A program made the position numbers and the translations under genes. From the NCBI GenBank assembly GCA_005882995.1, contig VBCY01000007.1:17461-56976 (forward strand): a stretch of DNA of 39,516 nt, in the 5' to 3' direction. Below the pieces are notes generated by a model. That model did not search any database, was not told where the DNA came from, and saw only the letters and a list, made by a program, of their open reading frames with translations. The DNA comes from Betaproteobacteria bacterium. GTDB taxonomy: Bacteria; Pseudomonadota; Gammaproteobacteria; Burkholderiales; Casimicrobiaceae. Below are positions 14,229 to 23,203 of the stretch, one piece after another (position 1 is the first letter of the stretch; each line of letters begins with the position of its first letter).

Positions 14229-14923
<695 letters not shown>

Positions 14924-14927
<4 letters not shown>

Positions 14928-17686
14928 GGGGCCGTCCGAGCGGATGACTCCGACTCGGTCTCCGATTCAACTGTGGGCGGCTCGGCCGCTGGTAACTCGA
15001 AGCGAAACAGGGCACCGCCGCCAGGGCGGTTCATCGCGATGATCGTCCCGCCGTGCGCAACGATGATCGCCTTGCAGATCGCGAGACCGAGCCCCACGCC
15101 GCTTTGCGCCGATTCAGACTTGAGTCGATAAAACTTGTCGAAGAGTCTAGCCTCCTCGCCTGCCGGAATGCCGGGACCTCGGTCGGCGATTTCCACGGCG
15201 ACGCGATTGTCCGTCGCGTCCGCGCTGACGTCGATCGACGTACCGGCTGGTGTGTATTTGGCTGCATTCTCGAGCAGGTTGGCCAGCACTTGCTCGATCA
15301 GGACCGGATCGACATTGATGAGGGGAAGATCGTCGGGCAAGGCGACGTTCACAGGATGACCACTGAGGGGGTCTCCGAGACGCGTCAGCACGCTGCCGAT
15401 GAGCTCTTCGAGCGACGACCACTGGCGCTTGATCTGCGCATTGCCGGATTCGAGACGTGCCATGTCGAGCAGGTTGCTCACCAGCACGCTCATCCGCTGC
15501 GCTTCGTCGTGGATGGTGGCAGCGAGCTCGTGGCGCGCTCCTTCGCTCAACGTGTCCGCACTCTCGGCGAGGCTCGACGAGGCACCGACGAGCACCGCGA
15601 GCGGCGTGCGCAGATCGTGGGAGATCGCGTTGAGCAGCGAATTGCGTAGGCTTTCGGTTTCGGCACGACGCGCGAGGTTTACGCGCTCGGAGGCGAGCTG
15701 GACACGCTCGATCGCCGCGGCGATCTGACCGGCGAAGGTCTCCACGAGGTGGCGCTGCTCGGGGATCATCAGTCGATCCTGCCGCGATGGCAGAACAGCG
15801 AGCACGCCGACGAGCTGGTGCGCAGCGGCGAGCGGCAGGTACAACGCGTCCGCGCCGGGCAGCGTGTGCGTGCCCAGTCCGGCGGCCACACGGTTGGCGT
15901 GCACCCAGCGTGCGACACCCAAGTCCGCGCCGTGAAAGGAGCCATAGATTCCTGGCGCTTTGGGATGAGCAATCGCGCCGGATGCCGTCGGCAACAGCAC
16001 AACCGCCTGCGCTTGGAAAACGGTCGAGACGTGCCGAACGGCGATAGTCGTTACCTCGTCGAGGCTTCCGGCACGTGAAAGCTCGCGGGTCATGGTGTAC
16101 AGCGCCTCGGTGCGTATCTGGCGGTGCTGCGCGACTCGCGCCTGTAGCCGGATGCTGGTCGTGAGGCTGCTGATGAGCAGTCCCACGATCAGCATGACGC
16201 CGAACGTGAACAAGTACTGCGTGTCGGATACGGCGAAGCTGTAATACGGTGGAACGAAAAGAAAATCGAACAGTGCAACCGACAGTACCGACGCCACGAT
16301 GGCGGGCCCGCGTCCCAGGCGATACGCCACCACCAGTACGCCGAGGAGGTAAAGCATCACCAGATTGGTTGCCTCGAAGCGTCCGAACAGGCCCCACGAG
16401 AGAGCGGTTGCAATCAAGCAGACCGCGACCGCCTCAACGTAACCGGGCCAGCGCTGCTTCCGCGATTTAGGCTTGGACTCGTCGATGCCGAGGTACGCCT
16501 TGCTCCGTGAAAGCTGATCGGCAAATCCGGTACGCGAACGCGCCTGATCGATGTCAGCAATGATCTGCAGATCGATGCCGCGCAACCGCTTTGTCAAGGT
16601 ATCGACGACAGAGCCAAAAAGCCAGCGGCGCAGCCCGTGCGTCGACGGCGGGCCGAGCAGCAGCTTGGTCGCATTGTTCTCGCCCGCAAAGTTGATGAGC
16701 TCGTCGGCAACCCGCGGGCCGGAGAGCACGCTCGTCTTGGCGCCCAGCAGCTCGGCGAGCGTCAGGTGAGCCAGGATGCGACTGCGCTGTGCCTGAGGCA
16801 GGCGAAGCAACTGAGGCGTCTCGACATAAACGGCATGCCATGGCGCGTCCAGAGCATCGGCAAGCCGCTTCGCCGCACGCACGTAGTGCTCACCGCGAAG
16901 GCTCGGCCCGATCGCGACGACGATCCGCTCGCCAGCCGCCCAGATCGGAACGATCGCCTTCTCTTCTCGGTATTGACGCATCTGCGCATCGACGCGGTCG
17001 GCCGTCTGCCGCAACGCCAACTCGCGCAGCGCGATCAGGTTTCCCTTTTTGAAGAAGTTGTCGAGCGCACGTTCGATCTGCTGAGGAACGTAAACCTTGC
17101 CTTCGCGCAACCGCTTGAGCAGCTCATCGGCCGAGAGATCAATAAGCTCGACTTCGTCCGCGGTTGCGAAGAATGTATCGGGAAGCGTCTCGCTGACGCG
17201 CACGCCGGTGATCTGGCCGATGACATCGTTCAGGCTTTCGATGTGCTGGACGTTGAGCGTCGTGTAGACGTTGATGCCCGCGCCGAGAAGCTCATCGACG
17301 TCCTGCCAGCGCTTGGGATGACGCGCGCCGGGCGCGTTGGTGTGCGCCAGCTCATCGACGAGAAGGAGTGTCGGTCTTCGTCTGAGCGCTGCGTCGAGAT
17401 CGAATTCGTTGATCGGCGCACCTTGGACATCGAGCATCAGCGGTGGAAGCTGCTCGAGGCCCTCGAGCATTGCAGCGGTTTCGGCGCGGCCGTGCGTCTC
17501 CAGCAACCCGACCACGACGTCGGTGCCGGCGCGACGTAACGCCTGCGTTGCCGCCAGCATCGCAAAAGTCTTGCCGACCCCCGCGGAAGCTCCGAAGAAA
17601 ATCTTCAGACGGCCGCGCTGCTCGCGCATGGCAGCCGCTTTGACCTCGGCGAGCAGTTGGTCCGGGTCGGGACGTTCGCTTTCCAT
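14924..17686 (-). CDS. kdpD: Sensor histidine kinase KdpD
   Basis: 920 residues in the complete KdpD layout. The cytoplasmic KdpD domain has a Walker A-like FFGASAGVGKT near residues 30-40, followed by a universal-stress-protein-like domain (about 255-375). Four short membrane helices of the DUF4118 type lie around 405-500, then a GAF-like region, the dimerisation domain with His690 in AISHDLRTPL, and an ATPase domain (NLLENAAKYTP, DRGPGIP, GVGLGLAICKAI). It senses low potassium or turgor and phosphorylates KdpE. It lies 66 bases downstream of kdpC and overlaps kdpE. No residues appear to be missing. Confidence 0.96.
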
Positions 17687-17752: not shown

Positions 17753-18331
17753 TCAGCGGATGCCGTCGAGCGCGAGGTTGAGCTCGAGCACATTGACCCG
17801 CGGCTCGCCGAGGAGCCCGAGCGTGCGTCCTTCAGTGTGCTCACCCACCAGAGACATGACGCGGTCAATGGACAGCCCGCGCATGCGGGCGACGCGCGGT
17901 GCCTGGTAGGCCGCGGCTGCGACACTGATATGCGGGTCGAGCCCGCTGCCGGACGCAGTGACGAGGTCGATGGGCACACGAGCCTTGTTGTCCGGGTCGG
18001 CATCACGCAATGCCTTGATGCGATCCTTCACCGCATCGGCCAGGCCGGGATTGCGCGCACCCTGGTTCGAAGCGCCGGAGGAAGCGCCGTTGTACGGCTG
18101 CGGCGACGTGGCCGACGGTCGGCTCCAGAAGTACTTCGGGTCGTCAAATGGCTGGCCGATCAAGCTGGAACCGAGGGTCTTGCCGTTCACGACGATCAGG
18201 CTGCCGTTCGCGGTGCTCGAGAAAGCCACCTGCGCGATTCCAGTCACCACCAGCGGATACACAACACCGGTCAACGCGGTGAGGACCACGAGCATCCGCA
18301 GCGACGGAACGATTTCAGAGAACGCGAACAT
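17753..18331 (-). CDS. kdpC: Potassium-transporting ATPase subunit KdpC
   Basis: 192 residues with one N-terminal membrane helix ([24 protein letters not shown]) and a periplasmic domain carrying the family motifs [30 protein letters not shown] and [12 protein letters not shown]. KdpC stabilises the KdpFABC complex and raises its ATP affinity. It follows kdpB by 15 bases, so it lies in the same message. Confidence 0.95.
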
Positions 18332-18346: not shown

Positions 18347-20431
18347 TCAGGCAAGATGCGCGGCGGCGAGCAGTACGTCGATCAGCTTGATTCCAAAGAA
18401 CGGCAGCAAGATGCCGCCGACGCCGTAGATCAGCATGTTCCGCCGCAGGATCGGCCCGGCGCCGAGGGGACGATATTTCACGCCCTTCAACGCAAGCGGG
18501 ATCAGCGCCGGAATGACCAGCGCGTTGAAAATCACCGCCGAGAGAATCGCGCTGTTCGGCGTGGCGAGATGCATCACATTCAATGTGTCGAGCACCGGAT
18601 AGGTGCTCGCAAACGCCGCCGGGATGATCGCGAAATACTTGGCGACGTCGTTGGCGATCGAGAAGGTGGTCAGCGCGCCGCGGGTCATCAGAAGCTGCTT
18701 GCCGATCTCGACGATCTCGATCAGCTTGGTCGGATTCGAATCGAGATCGACCATGTTGCCGGCTTCTTTCGCCGCCTGCGTGCCGCTGTTCATGACGACT
18801 GCGACGTCGGCCTGCGCGAGCGCCGGCGCGTCGTTGGTCCCGTCGCCTGTCATCGCGACCAGCTTGCCTTCGGCCTGAATGCTCCGGATGAGCTTGAGCT
18901 TGGCTTCGGGATTGATCTCGGCGACGAAGTCGTCTACACCCGCTTCGGCGGCAATCGACGCGGCGGTCAGCTTGTTGTCGCCGGTGACCATGACGGTGCG
19001 GATGCCCATCTTGCGCAGCTCTGCGAAACGCTCCCTGATGTGCGTCTTGACGATGTCCTTGAGCTCGACCACCCCGAGAACGTGGCGCCCTTCGGCCACC
19101 ACCAGCGGCGTCGACCCGCGGCGGGCAACCTCTTCGACGCGGGCGGTGACTTCCGCGTCGATCGCTCTCCCCTGCGGAACGATCCACTCCCTGACTGCAT
19201 CGACCGCTCCCTTGCGGATTTCGCGCCCACGGTGGTTCACGCCGCTCATGCGTGTCTGCGCCGAGAACGGGATGATGGTGAACTGTCCCGGCTCCAGCGC
19301 CGGCGGCATGACGCCCCAGGCGCGTTTGACGTAGGTCACGATGCTCTTGCCCTCGGGCGTTTCATCGCCGAGCGATGCAAGCAGCGTGGCTTCGGCAAGC
19401 TGCTGCGACGTCACGCCCGCCAACGGGTAGATGGCAGACGCCTGCCGGTTGCCGAAGGTGATCGTTCCAGTCTTGTCGAGCAGCAGCACATCGCAATCGC
19501 CGGCCGCCTCCACGGCACGGCCCGACGTCGCGACGACGTTGGCGCGCATCATCCTTCCCATCCCCGCCACGCCGATCGCTGAGAGCAGCCCCCCGATGGT
19601 CGTCGGAATCAGGCACACGAGCAGCGCAACCAGCACGGTGATGGTCACTGGCGTGCCCGCCTTCGCCACCTCGACGCTGTAGAGCGAATACGGGAACAGG
19701 GTCACCGTCGCGAGAAGAAACACCAGCGTCATGGCGACGAGCAGGATGGTGAGCGCGATTTCGTTGGGTGTCTTCTGCCGCTTCGCTCCCTCGACCATGC
19801 TGATCATCCGGTCGAGAAACGCTTCGCCGGGGTTGACATTGATGCGCACGACAAGCCAGTCCGACAGGACACGTGTGCCTCCTGTCACCGTGTCGAAGTC
19901 GCTTCCTGCGGCGCGGATCACCGGCGCGCTTTCGCCCGTGATCGCGGACTCGTCGATCGACGCTGCGCCTTGGATGACTTCACCATCGCCCGGAATCAGA
20001 TCGCCCTGCACCACCAGGACGACGTCGCCCTTGCGCAGGCTCGCGGAGGGCACCGGCGTCTGCGCCGCGGCGCGGTCTGGCTTGGCCAGCTTCTTTGCGG
20101 TGGTTTCCCTGCGCGCGCTCTTGAGCGAAGCGGCCTGCGCCTTGCTGCGGCCCTCCGCGATCGCTTCTGCGAAGTTGGCGAAGAGCAGCGTGACCCAGAG
20201 CCAGAGGGTCACTGCAAGGATAAATGCCGCCGGCGCCTCCCCCTGGCCGAACAGCGCCTGCAGCCACAGGATCGTCGTCAGGATGCTGCCGATATAGACG
20301 ACAAACATCACCGGATTGCGCCATTGGTAGCGCGGCGTGAGCCGTCGGAAGCTGTCGACGAGCGCCGTCTTCATCAGCTCCCCGGTCAAGAACCACGACA
20401 GTGCCGACTGTTTTGCAGTGACGGTCGACAT
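18347..20431 (-). CDS. kdpB: Potassium-transporting ATPase ATP-binding subunit KdpB
   Basis: 694 residues, a P-type ATPase of normal length. Features seen include the actuator loop TGES (Ser168), the phosphorylation site DKTGT with Asp319, the nucleotide-binding region with KGAVDAV, and the hinge motif [19 protein letters not shown]. Membrane segments number about seven. KdpB hydrolyses ATP and drives potassium through KdpA. The serine of TGES is the residue known in E. coli to be phosphorylated for inhibition at high potassium. The gene appears intact, in contrast to kdpA directly upstream. Confidence 0.96.
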
Positions 20432-20459: not shown

Positions 20460-22215
20460 CTAGCGGGCGGAGTAAAGCAAGAGGTGCTCGACCACGGGGC
20501 CCAGCGCCAGCGCGGGCACGAAGGTGAGCGCGCCCACAGTGATCACCACGCCGATGAGCACGAACACGAACAAAGGTGTGTGGGTCGGCAGCGTGCCCGC
20601 GGACGCTGGCACGCGCTTGGCGGCGGCCAGTGCCCCCGCGAGCGCGAGCACGGGGATTGCCAGCCAGTAGCGCGCAAAAAGCATGCAGATGCCCAGTGCC
20701 GTGTTGTAGAAAGGCGTGTTGGCGTTGATCCCGGCGAACGCGCTCCCGTTGTTGTTGCTCGCCGACGAAAAGGCGTAGAGGATTTCCGAGAAGCCGTGCT
20801 CCCCGGCGTTCGACGCCCCGACCTTGCCGGCGTCGAGCATCACCGCCACCGCCGTCCCGCACAGGACGAACAGCGCCGGCAGCAGGATCGCGATCGACGC
20901 CATCTTGATTTCAAACGCTCCGATCTTTTTGCCCAGATATTCGGGCGTGCGTCCGATCATCAGGCCGGCAATGAACACCGCAACGACAGCGAACATGATC
21001 ATCCCGTAAAGGCCGGAGCCCACGCCGCCGAAGATGAGAATCGTGCATCGAATTGACCGAGCCATTCGACGCGGCCGTGGTCGCGGTCGCCCACAGCGCC
21101 GAGTTGGCGACGCCGAGCCGCACCTCCTTGCCTTCCATGTTACCGCCCGGATTGGTCGCGCTCTGGACCTGATCGGCGCCAAGCTTGGCGAGCAACGGGT
21201 TGCCGTTCCGCTCGATCGAATAGGTGAACGGCAACAACGCCGCAAAAACGATCGTCATCGCTGCCAGCAGCGCCCAGCCCTCCTGCGCGCTGCCGATCAT
21301 GCGACCGAATGTGTAGCAGAGCGCCACGGGGATCGCCAGAATGGCCAGCATCTCCAGGAAATTCGTGAGCGGTGTCGGGTTTTCCAGCGGGTGCGCCGAG
21401 TTGACGTTGTAATAGCCTCCGCCGTTGGTGCCGAGTTGCTTGATCGCGATCTGCGAGGCCACCGGCCCAAGCGCAATAGTTTGCTCGGTCGCGGTCGCTT
21501 TCGCCGTGATTGGGTTGCCTTTTTCATCCTTGCGCGGCTGACCGTCCGAGTTTGTCTTCGGATTGTCGTAAGTGACGGGCTGCGTCAGCGTGGCAGTGGC
21601 GTACTTGTCGAAGGTCTGCGGGATGCCTTGCCAGACCAGCACCAGCGCGAAGACGAGTGAAAGCGGCAGCAGGATGTAGACAGTCGTTCGCGTCAAATCG
21701 ACCCAGAAGTTACCGATGGCCTTGGCCTCCTTGCGCACGAAGCCGCGCACCAGCGCCACCAGCACCGCCATGCCGCTGGCTGCGGACACGAAGTTCTGCA
21801 CCGCGAGCGCGAACATCTGCGTGAGGTAGCTCATGGTGCTCTCGCCACCGTAACCCTGCCAATTGGTATTGGTGATGAAGCTCGTTGCCGTGTTGAATGC
21901 GGAATCGGCGCTCACCGCAGCCATCGTCTGCGGATTGAGCGGGAGCCATTGCTGCAACCGTTGCACGGCGTAGACCACGAGCGCGCCCGCAAGGTTGAAC
22001 CAGAGCATCGTCAGCGCGTAGCGCGTCCAGTGCATGTCCTCGCGCGGATCGATGCCGGCACCTCGATAGATCAGCCGTTCCAGCGGACCGCCGATCCGCT
22101 GTGCGAGCGTCGCACGACCTTCGTAGACCGCTGCCATGTACGCCCCGAGCGGCTTTGCGAGAAGCAGCAGGACGATGAGGTACAGCCCGAGCTGCAGCCA
22201 ACCGGTGATGTTCAC
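20460..22215 (-). pseudogene. kdpA: Potassium-transporting ATPase subunit KdpA, frameshifted
   Basis: From a GTG at 22215 (NITGWLQLGLYLIVLL) the frame runs 393 residues through pore loops TNTNWQGYGGES, LGTNGGGYYNVNS and [11 protein letters not shown]. It then must change frame at 21037-21042 to reach [22 protein letters not shown], the fourth pore loop [13 protein letters not shown] and the stop at 20460. About 18 residues that normally follow SMHDS (a FTPLGGLVP-like stretch ending before IFGG) are missing. As written, the potassium channel subunit would be truncated after the third pore loop and the complex non-functional. Start chosen because GTGA overlaps the kdpF stop. Real lesion or assembly fault are both open. 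Confidence 0.9.
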
Positions 22216-22304
22216 TCGAAGATCTCCGGCTTGAACATCGCGATGAGCAGATAGATGAAGATGCCGAGCGAGGCGAGACCGCTCAACCCGTAGACCCAGT
22301 TCAT
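22212..22304 (-). CDS. kdpF: Potassium-transporting ATPase small subunit KdpF
   Basis: A 30-residue single-helix protein: MNWVYGLSGLASLGIFIYLL, then IAMFKPEIFE. The final Lys-Pro-Glu-x-Phe is the KdpF signature. KdpF is a lipid-like stabilising subunit of the KdpFABC complex. Its TGA overlaps the kdpA GTG start by three bases, so translation is coupled. A purine-rich AGGGAGG lies just before the ATG. Confidence 0.92.
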   Translation of the reverse strand: MNWVYGLSGLASLGIFIYLLIAMFKPEIFE

Positions 22305-22316
22305 GAGCGACCTCCC

Positions 22317-22418
22317 TTATCGCCCGAGCAGATTCGCGCAAAAGCGTATCAACCCTGCCGAAGCGGCGAAGAAGGCAACGATCAGCGCAATAAAGACAAG
22401 GTCGGACACGAAATTCAT
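22317..22418 (-). CDS. Small membrane protein leading the kdp operon
   Basis: 33 residues with a single membrane helix (VSDLVFIALIVAFFAASAGL) and a short tail ending RFCANLLGR. The start at 22418 is supported by GAGGAG six bases before the ATG; an earlier in-frame ATG at 22439 (MSTEEQE) has no such site. It ends 12 bases before kdpF, so it is the first gene of the kdp message. Similar short proteins with a FFA...YxRxCERL-like end are, from memory, often found before kdpF; their function is unknown. It may be a further accessory subunit of the pump. Confidence 0.75.
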   Translation of the reverse strand: MNFVSDLVFIALIVAFFAASAGLIRFCANLLGR

Positions 22419-22633
22419 CTCCTGCTCCTCGGTCGACATGGGTTGCAACAGCATCACCCTAAACCGCCGAGCATCAGGACTTCGTAAAATGCACCGCCCG
22501 TGCGCGTAACGGCCGTATAAAAATGCCGCGTTCCCTGCATTCACGGTGCGGATCAGAGTTGTGCAATGTCTGGCGGTCTCTGTCAGAATGCGAGCCACAC
22601 TAAAGCCAAGCGCTGCAAAAAGCCGAAAGTCAC
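22419..22633. promoter_or_regulatory. Divergent promoter region between kdp and the lipocalin gene
   Basis: About 215 bases separate the kdp leader gene from the lipocalin gene. On the minus strand the dyad-containing stretch TTTATACGGCCGTTACGC (22504-22521) faintly recalls the T-rich KdpE sites of E. coli and includes the palindrome ACGGCCGT (22509-22516). No promoter with both good -35 and -10 boxes could be seen. Assignment to KdpE control is inference. Confidence 0.3.
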
Positions 22634-23203
22634 ATGCATCGTCGCTTCCCGTGGGTGCTGCTCATACTTGCCTGGGCGGTGCCGGCTGCGGCGCTGATCC
22701 CCGCCTCCGGTTTTGATCTCGATCGTTACCTCGGTACCTGGTACGAGATCGCTGCGATTCCGGGATTTCTGCAAAGCCGTTGCGCTCGTGATACTCGCTC
22801 CGAGTACTCGGCGGCGGAAAATGGTGCGATCGCTTCCAAGAGCCGCTGCACGCGCGCGGACGGCAGCGCCGAGGAAAACGAAGGACGCCATCGCGCGCTC
22901 GACCCACAGCTGCCGTCGGTGCTCAAGATCACTTCGGTCCATTTCCTTGGCATCTGGTGGTATCCGTTCGGCCGCGAGTCGATCGTCCTCGCGGTCGGCC
23001 CGGACTACCGCTGGCTGGTCGTGGGTCACCCATCCTTGCGCTACGGTCGCATCCTGTCCCGCCGGCCATCGCTCGATGATGCCGATCTGGCGAAGGCCGC
23101 CGCCGCCTTCGCGGATCAGCACTTTGACTTGTGCATGTTCGTCACCACACCGCAGACCGGCGGCCGTGAGCGCATAACCCGGCTGTGCGAGCTGGTGCAC
23201 TGA
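22634..23203 (+). CDS. Lipocalin family protein (Blc-like)
   Basis: 189 residues: a signal peptide (HRRFPWVLLILAWAVPAAA) and a lipocalin barrel with the first motif YLGTWYEIA (Gly34, Trp36), the second motif region VLAVGPDYRWLVVGHP, and YGRILSRRPSL, all as in bacterial Blc proteins. There is no lipobox, so unlike E. coli Blc it is probably soluble in the periplasm. Four cysteines (Cys50, Cys72 and two near the end) could form disulfides. Blc proteins bind lysophospholipids or fatty acids. It is divergent from kdp and 47 bases upstream of a lipoprotein gene. Confidence 0.9.
   Translation: MHRRFPWVLLILAWAVPAAALIPASGFDLDRYLGTWYEIAAIPGFLQSRCARDTRSEYSAAENGAIASKSRCTRADGSAEENEGRHRALDPQLPSVLKITSVHFLGIWWYPFGRESIVLAVGPDYRWLVVGHPSLRYGRILSRRPSLDDADLAKAAAAFADQHFDLCMFVTTPQTGGRERITRLCELVH

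Follow-up and report, generated by a model that had tools for sequence, protein, structure and literature searches.

KdpFABC, a pump in which a channel and a P-type ATPase form a chimera, has been studied intensively, and its list of subunits is treated as closed. The locus described here raises the question of whether that list is complete. In a 39,516-nucleotide stretch of DNA from a betaproteobacterium of the Casimicrobiaceae (contig VBCY01000007.1; hereafter the window), a short open reading frame (ORF) precedes kdpF. The original prediction took it to be an unannotated membrane protein of 33 residues that leads the kdp operon and could be another structural or regulatory subunit of the pump. 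We asked whether this ORF is a gene, how it relates to KdpF and what its product might do.

The ORF before kdpF

Translation of positions 22317-22418 of the minus strand gave MNFVSDLVFIALIVAFFAASAGLIRFCANLLGR, 33 residues with zero internal stops, as predicted. The purine run GAGGAGCAGGAG at 22430-22419 resembles a Shine-Dalgarno sequence, in keeping with the ribosome-binding site proposed for the ORF. The spacing was also correct: exactly 12 bases separate the peptide stop, which ends at 22317, from the kdpF ATG, which begins at 22304. The 19-residue stretch of highest hydrophobicity averages 2.42 on the Kyte-Doolittle scale, as expected of the single helix that had been called. The peptide gene and the kdp operon around it are listed in Table 1.

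Table 1. Features of the kdp locus in the window
Feature	Position	Strand	Details and basis
Small membrane-peptide gene	22317..22418	minus	33 aa from ATG 22418; stop TAA 22319-22317; translation, family conservation, dN/dS
Alternative, perhaps true, extent of this gene from GTG 22409	22317..22409	minus	30 aa, MSDLVF...; suggested by the position of Asp in relatives
Shine-Dalgarno-like purine run before the peptide gene	22419..22430	minus	sequence
Shine-Dalgarno-like GGGAGG of kdpF, within the 12-base spacer	22311..22316	minus	sequence
kdpF	22212..22304	minus	30 aa; Pfam PF09604 28.5 bits, passes cut-off of 21.2
kdpA	20460..22215	minus	GTG 22215 overlaps kdpF stop; PF03814 in two pieces, two frames
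kdpB	18347..20431	minus	NCBIfam TIGR01497 1054.5 bits, over cut-off
kdpC	17753..18331	minus	NCBIfam NF001454 262.9 bits, over cut-off
kdpD-like sensor kinase	14924..17686	minus	NCBIfam NF007793 1028.9 bits, under cut-off of 1123
kdpE-like response regulator	14229..14927	minus	NCBIfam NF007820 318.9 bits, just under cut-off of 325

When the window peptide was compared with Pfam and NCBIfam, every model scored below its own cut-off. Between 21800 and 23300, Rfam gave no regulatory RNA match up to E 1, and a scan of the peptide region for promoters and terminators found nothing. The profile of the peptide family, which includes the window peptide itself, located one place in the 5.29 Mb genome, the window site (E 4.4e-11).

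The window's KdpF scores under the NCBIfam TIGR02115 cut-off (21.4 versus 26.85). Its kdpA frame is broken near 21010-21038 (minus), where the PF03814 pieces fall in different frames, and about 20 conserved residues between 'MHDS' and 'FGGVGSG' of the KdpA consensus are absent. The break may mean that kdpA is truly a pseudogene, or it may stem from faulty assembly of the genome, which is in 639 contigs. A divergent gene at 22634-23203 (plus) adjoins the operon and matches the outer-membrane lipoprotein Blc weakly (42.6 bits, cut-off 267); by eye, a genome of the same bacterial family (G003) has a similar neighbouring gene, on the minus strand.

Distribution of the peptide and selection on it

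The ORF is conserved in the window's own bacterial family. KdpA is present in 12 of 64 genomes of that family, each of which carries the peptide a short distance upstream of kdpA. Ten were found by peptide search at E<=1 (G000, G003, G009, G017, G022, G024, G045, G048, G049 and G063), some through weak matches (E up to 0.9) that were then read by eye. The search missed the other two (G013 and G030), in which the peptide is plain by eye directly before kdpF. One further genome (G023) has no KdpA match, but a contig of it ends within the operon and shows the peptide (E 0.0315), kdpF and the beginning of kdpA. Identity to the window peptide is 62% and 59% for its two nearest relatives, both of which lie directly before kdpF. 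We dismissed matches in five genomes without KdpA (G002, G005, G040, G046 and G061; E 0.11-0.72) as chance.

To look further afield, we took the best 80 of 587 candidates from a scan for KdpA, a choice biased towards KdpA proteins near the query. Three of these named loci (L051, L095 and L113) had no usable upstream DNA and were dropped. With a profile built from the window's family alone, 55 of the remaining 77 contained the peptide at E<0.01; after profile iteration 70 did, and KdpF was present in all 77. Since E-values after iteration are not independent of the training hits, controls were run with the iterated profile: at E<0.01 it matched 0 of the 11,011 further ORFs in these loci and nothing in 20 mononucleotide shuffles. 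A lack of conservation in relatives, which would have spoken against the original prediction, was thus not seen: the peptide occurs in 12 of 12 kdpA-bearing genomes of the family and in 70 of 77 named loci.

By record title, the positives span Beta-, Gamma- and Deltaproteobacteria, Magnetococcales, Planctomycetota, Chloroflexi, Acidobacteria, Nitrospirae, Myxococcales, Candidatus Binatia, Bacteroidetes and Ignavibacteriae, and titles of metagenome-assembled genomes may be wrong in single cases. Positive plasmid records came from Mycetohabitans, Azospirillum, Novosphingobium, Streptomyces, Rhizobium etli, Thalassospira, Deinococcus radiodurans and Nonomuraea; an Acetobacter plasmid record gave a weak match (E 0.038). 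Distant members are 17-48% identical to the window peptide, a level at which the ease of aligning hydrophobic helices calls for caution.

We also surveyed 398 genomes drawn evenly from the window's phylum, Pseudomonadota, 136 of which contain KdpA. Upstream DNA from 135 of these, the window's own genome excluded, yielded 136 regions that had played no part in training the profile; they do not include the loci of three KdpA matches that were small or partial (G220:C59, G385:C14 and G244:C140). The peptide was present at E<0.01 in 76 regions, and a whole-genome search recovered it from one that had been wrongly cut, giving 77. Eleven more regions hold well-placed matches (E 0.016-0.98) that look right by eye, so that the count ranges from 77 to 88 of 136. 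The profile search did not find the peptide in the other 48-59 regions, and three families (coded f16, f18 and f19) lack it so far as surveyed.

When the same 398 genomes were searched in full, with at most 20 candidates scored per genome, the 64 strongest matches listed (E<=1.25e-3, a limit chosen after the list was seen) all lay beside kdp genes. In 63 cases KdpA followed on the same strand, with the match 116-381 nt upstream of it; the remaining match (G208), close to the end of a contig, immediately preceded a kdpF-like ORF. Only three of the next 17 listed matches (E 1.7e-3 to 8.5e-3) were beside KdpA. Because the strongest matches adjoin kdp genes without exception, the family is tied to kdp and is not a general hydrophobic peptide. 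It very likely belongs with the Kdp pump.

One Myxococcales genome (G465, the source of named locus L080) gave a second strong match within a long open frame. We considered a fusion protein and rejected it: the match belongs to a separate second kdp operon, in which the peptide precedes a kdpF-like ORF (L269, G465:C42:156500-160000). Among seven genomes searched for the peptide in this comparison, G466 had no match and G461 had a weak second match (E 0.0032).

Profile searches of named records did not find the peptide in E. coli K-12, Sinorhizobium meliloti pSymA, Halobacterium or Comamonas antarctica, in three Bacillota (Lactiplantibacillus plantarum, Enterococcus raffinosus and Staphylococcus epidermidis), or in the named loci of Ideonella, Rhodococcus and Deinococcus sp. 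D7000. Together with the survey regions that lack it, these absences indicate that the Kdp pump can do without the peptide. On a FastTree phylogeny of 134 KdpA sequences (L092, L150 and L157 left out), presence or absence of the peptide in 129 labelled rows, 17 of them without it, requires at least 10 changes, or 7 when only well-supported branches are counted. Five doubtful rows were unlabelled, and two were labelled positive on a weak match (L128, E 0.038) or by eye (L024). Ten changes are fewer than in any of 500 label shuffles (mean 16.2). The peptide is passed on with the pump and has been repeatedly lost or gained.

To measure selection, we used Nei-Gojobori counting with Jukes-Cantor correction, pooling pairs, which are not independent, and bootstrapping codons. 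The ratio dN/dS was 0.17 in ten Bradyrhizobium-like copies (bootstrap upper bound 0.34), 0.18 in ten Rhizobiaceae-like copies (0.32) and 0.20 in five Burkholderia-like copies (0.51); the first two clade labels are our own, drawn from the sequences and the group codes. When the same DNA was read in the other two frames, ratios in these three clades were 1.2-2.8. For comparison, kdpF gave 0.17 in the Bradyrhizobium-like set and 0.07 in the Burkholderia-like set. The peptide gene is protein-coding and under purifying selection, and a ratio near one, which would have spoken against the original prediction, was seen in none of the three clades.

Further sets lay outside the frame-controlled comparison. 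The set made up of the window and the three relatives nearest to it gave dN 0.36 and dS 1.43, a ratio of about 0.25 near saturation; a second set from the same bacterial family gave dN 0.41 and dS 1.20. Three Janthinobacterium rows, two sharing one peptide sequence, were the least clear (dN 0.14, dS 0.31, about 0.45), and the Pandoraea set consisted of two identical rows. Taking conservation and selection together, we regard the peptide gene as real with near certainty.

Family features and possible roles

Members of the family are 26-58 residues long (median 31). Most have 26-35 residues; long C-terminal tails, up to 58 residues in total, occur in Cupriavidus (L063), Ralstonia (L105) and two other loci (L182 and L213). 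An aromatic residue occupies positions 4-6 in 63 of the 70 members from the named loci, and 41 of these 70 end in a Cys-x-x-Leu-like motif. With starts picked by a simple rule, Asp is residue 2 in 56 members and residue 3 in 10, or 66 of 70 together.

The position of this Asp bears on the choice of start codon for the window peptide. Translation from ATG 22418 places Asp at residue 6, and translation from GTG 22409, in the same frame, gives MSDLVF..., the family pattern; purine-rich DNA lies at a workable distance from both. Because Asp is at residue 2 or 3 in nearly all relatives, the 30-residue form appears slightly more likely. Read from this GTG, the window peptide conforms to the family pattern, and it also adjoins kdpF and kdpA as other members do. 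The predicted ORF of 33 residues is open from its ATG, and the true protein is perhaps three residues shorter.

The net charge of the first five residues is zero or negative in all 70 members. After residue 22 the charge averages +0.87 and is positive in 48. By the positive-inside rule, a non-positive N terminus and a basic C-terminal tail suggest an N-out, C-in topology.

Gene order varies. In 50 of 70 loci the peptide stop overlaps the kdpF start by four bases; the window, with its 12-base gap, is among the exceptions. Other arrangements were read from matches that are each weak (E 1.8e-4 to 0.42): kdpF comes first, then the peptide and kdpA, in G048, G145 and G259; in G304 the peptide follows the end of kdpB (by eye) and precedes kdpA, with kdpF further upstream; and the order in D. 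radiodurans is kdpB, peptide, kdpF, kdpA. An initial reading of G048 and G304 as having the peptide without KdpF was wrong, as KdpF is further upstream in both.

We consider it fairly probable, judging from sequence comparisons, that the peptide is an accessory single-helix subunit or an assembly factor of the Kdp pump. It would be an inner-membrane peptide made together with the pump, its negatively charged N terminus facing outside and its basic tail facing the cytoplasm. Since the gene stays beside kdpA or kdpF even when kdpB is elsewhere, the helix may pack on the membrane part of KdpA/KdpF. Its role there could be to aid assembly of the pump, to stabilize it or to tune it, the part that KdpF plays in E. 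coli, a species in which the second peptide would have been lost or never present.

A broader form of this proposal, for which we see the chances as evenly balanced, is that, a few lineages aside, most Kdp pumps are encoded by five genes and have a second single-helix subunit, which lies in the membrane against KdpA/KdpF and stabilizes or tunes the intersubunit potassium path. Such a subunit would have been missed because the pump whose structure and biochemistry were studied is that of E. coli, in which the peptide is absent. Relatives of KdpA in the PDB (E<=1e-10) comprise 25 entries. These hold three sequences, each 557 residues long, as is E. coli KdpA, and a solved complex from a species that carries the peptide gene was not found among them. 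We take these sequences to be from E. coli, which fits the titles of the structure papers, and E. coli K-12 is presumably the source of the solved Kdp structures. More than half of the surveyed operons encode this conserved peptide, which E. coli lacks; if it is a subunit, the pump that has been studied would be a reduced form.

The main rival, which we judge unlikely, is a regulatory membrane peptide that is made with the pump and has another target; it might inhibit or degrade the pump when potassium returns, or give feedback to KdpD. Small regulatory membrane peptides such as MgtR, SgrT and MgrB are known, the window has a kdpD-like gene, and patchy presence might suit a tuning role. Against a link to KdpD, an annotated KdpD adjoins kdpF in the S. 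epidermidis record, where the peptide is absent, and E. coli, which has KdpD, also lacks the peptide. The order variants, in which the peptide keeps to kdpA or kdpF, may likewise argue against a regulator.

It is improbable that the ORF is a translational leader that sets kdpF translation by coupling and whose peptide has no job of its own. The four-base overlap with kdpF is what such a leader would show, but the amino acid sequence is under purifying selection, the transmembrane pattern is kept across phyla, and the region contains no Rfam family up to E 1. The gene is also found, in weak matches, after kdpF or after kdpB, where it could not lead kdpF; because it keeps to kdpA/kdpF without always being first, a mere leader is hard to uphold.

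A divergent duplicate of KdpF with the same job is a comparably slim prospect. KdpF (PF09604, TIGR02115), a subunit of KdpFABC of about 30 residues, shares with the peptide its operon, its size class, its single transmembrane helix and its production with the pump. However, HHalign aligned the two families over only 5 columns with a probability of 2.9%, and neither PF09604 nor TIGR02115 matched the window peptide at E<=10. The Tyr-Leu and Ala-Leu pairs that KdpF keeps, and its Glu close to the end, are absent from the peptide. Moreover, the two co-occur in 70 of 70 loci and so are found together, not as substitutes. The profile comparison and the co-occurrence both uphold the original prediction that the peptide is distinct from KdpF; by sequence, it is not KdpF.

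Finally, the ORF is very short, and a mechanical ORF finder lists many of like length, but conservation, the controls and dN/dS make a chance ORF without function hardly credible.

Known small proteins and annotation records

None of the Pfam and NCBIfam models matched more than two of the 38 members of the peptide alignment at E<=0.1, and a PDB profile search returned nothing better than E 0.071. With the PsaM models (TIGR03053 / PF07465), the window peptide scored 16.8 bits versus a cut-off of 22.85 and 13.4 versus 21.1, and PsaM matched 1 of 38 members at E<=0.1. Matches to PsaM, BcsF, SecE and other families were weak and confined in each case to one or two members of the 38, with a best E of 0.00095; we attribute them to the chance likeness of hydrophobic helices.

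A possible precedent comes from Clostridium acetobutylicum, in which Treuner-Lange et al. are said to have noted, in 1997, two small hydrophobic ORFs before kdpA. The position of the first, OrfZ/KdpZ, would match that of the peptide, and the two are likened by position alone; in contrast, the three Bacillota records we examined lack the peptide family. The old report may be prior art for the peptide. The operon name kdpZYABCXDE appears in a later article (PMC5401905). That name aside, the literature we searched, mostly titles and abstracts, yielded no second small gene before kdpF. As far as the available text goes, an unannotated kdpF in Caulobacter (PMC8552747) is not this peptide gene, and the main text of a D. 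radiodurans small-peptide survey has 'kdp' once, in a general list (PMC9650054).

The closest functional analogies are CydX and AcrZ, short membrane proteins that join the large complexes of cytochrome bd oxidase and AcrB, respectively. These belong to different complexes, and the likeness to the peptide is one of working principle. Small membrane proteins of this type are reported to be hard to find by annotation (PMC4325964, PMC7267776).

The peptide family is widespread and so far without a family model, and a gene can remain so across many phyla because it is only about 30 codons long. The remark that genes this short are easily overlooked proved apt, as the gene is seldom annotated in public records. 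For the Rhizobium copy, 53 of the best 60 of 164 rows have no feature there, five records are unannotated and two list a 'hypothetical protein'; this count draws on an incomplete gene table for plasmids and includes three weak matches (E 3-8) among the 60. RefSeq annotates the peptide sporadically, once under a misnomer: WP_191287747.1 of Mycetohabitans rhizoxinica, a family member of 34 residues (profile E 1e-10) that overlaps KdpF by 4 bases, is named 'potassium ABC transporter ATPase', which is wrong because 34 residues cannot be an ABC ATPase. The label 'unannotated' therefore fits most records, with this entry and the two hypothetical proteins as exceptions. Gene tables can also miss KdpF-like small ORFs: such ORFs lie directly before kdpA on a L. 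plantarum plasmid (L123, 877-972) and in a second locus (L124, 858-938), and both are missing from the gene tables of their records.
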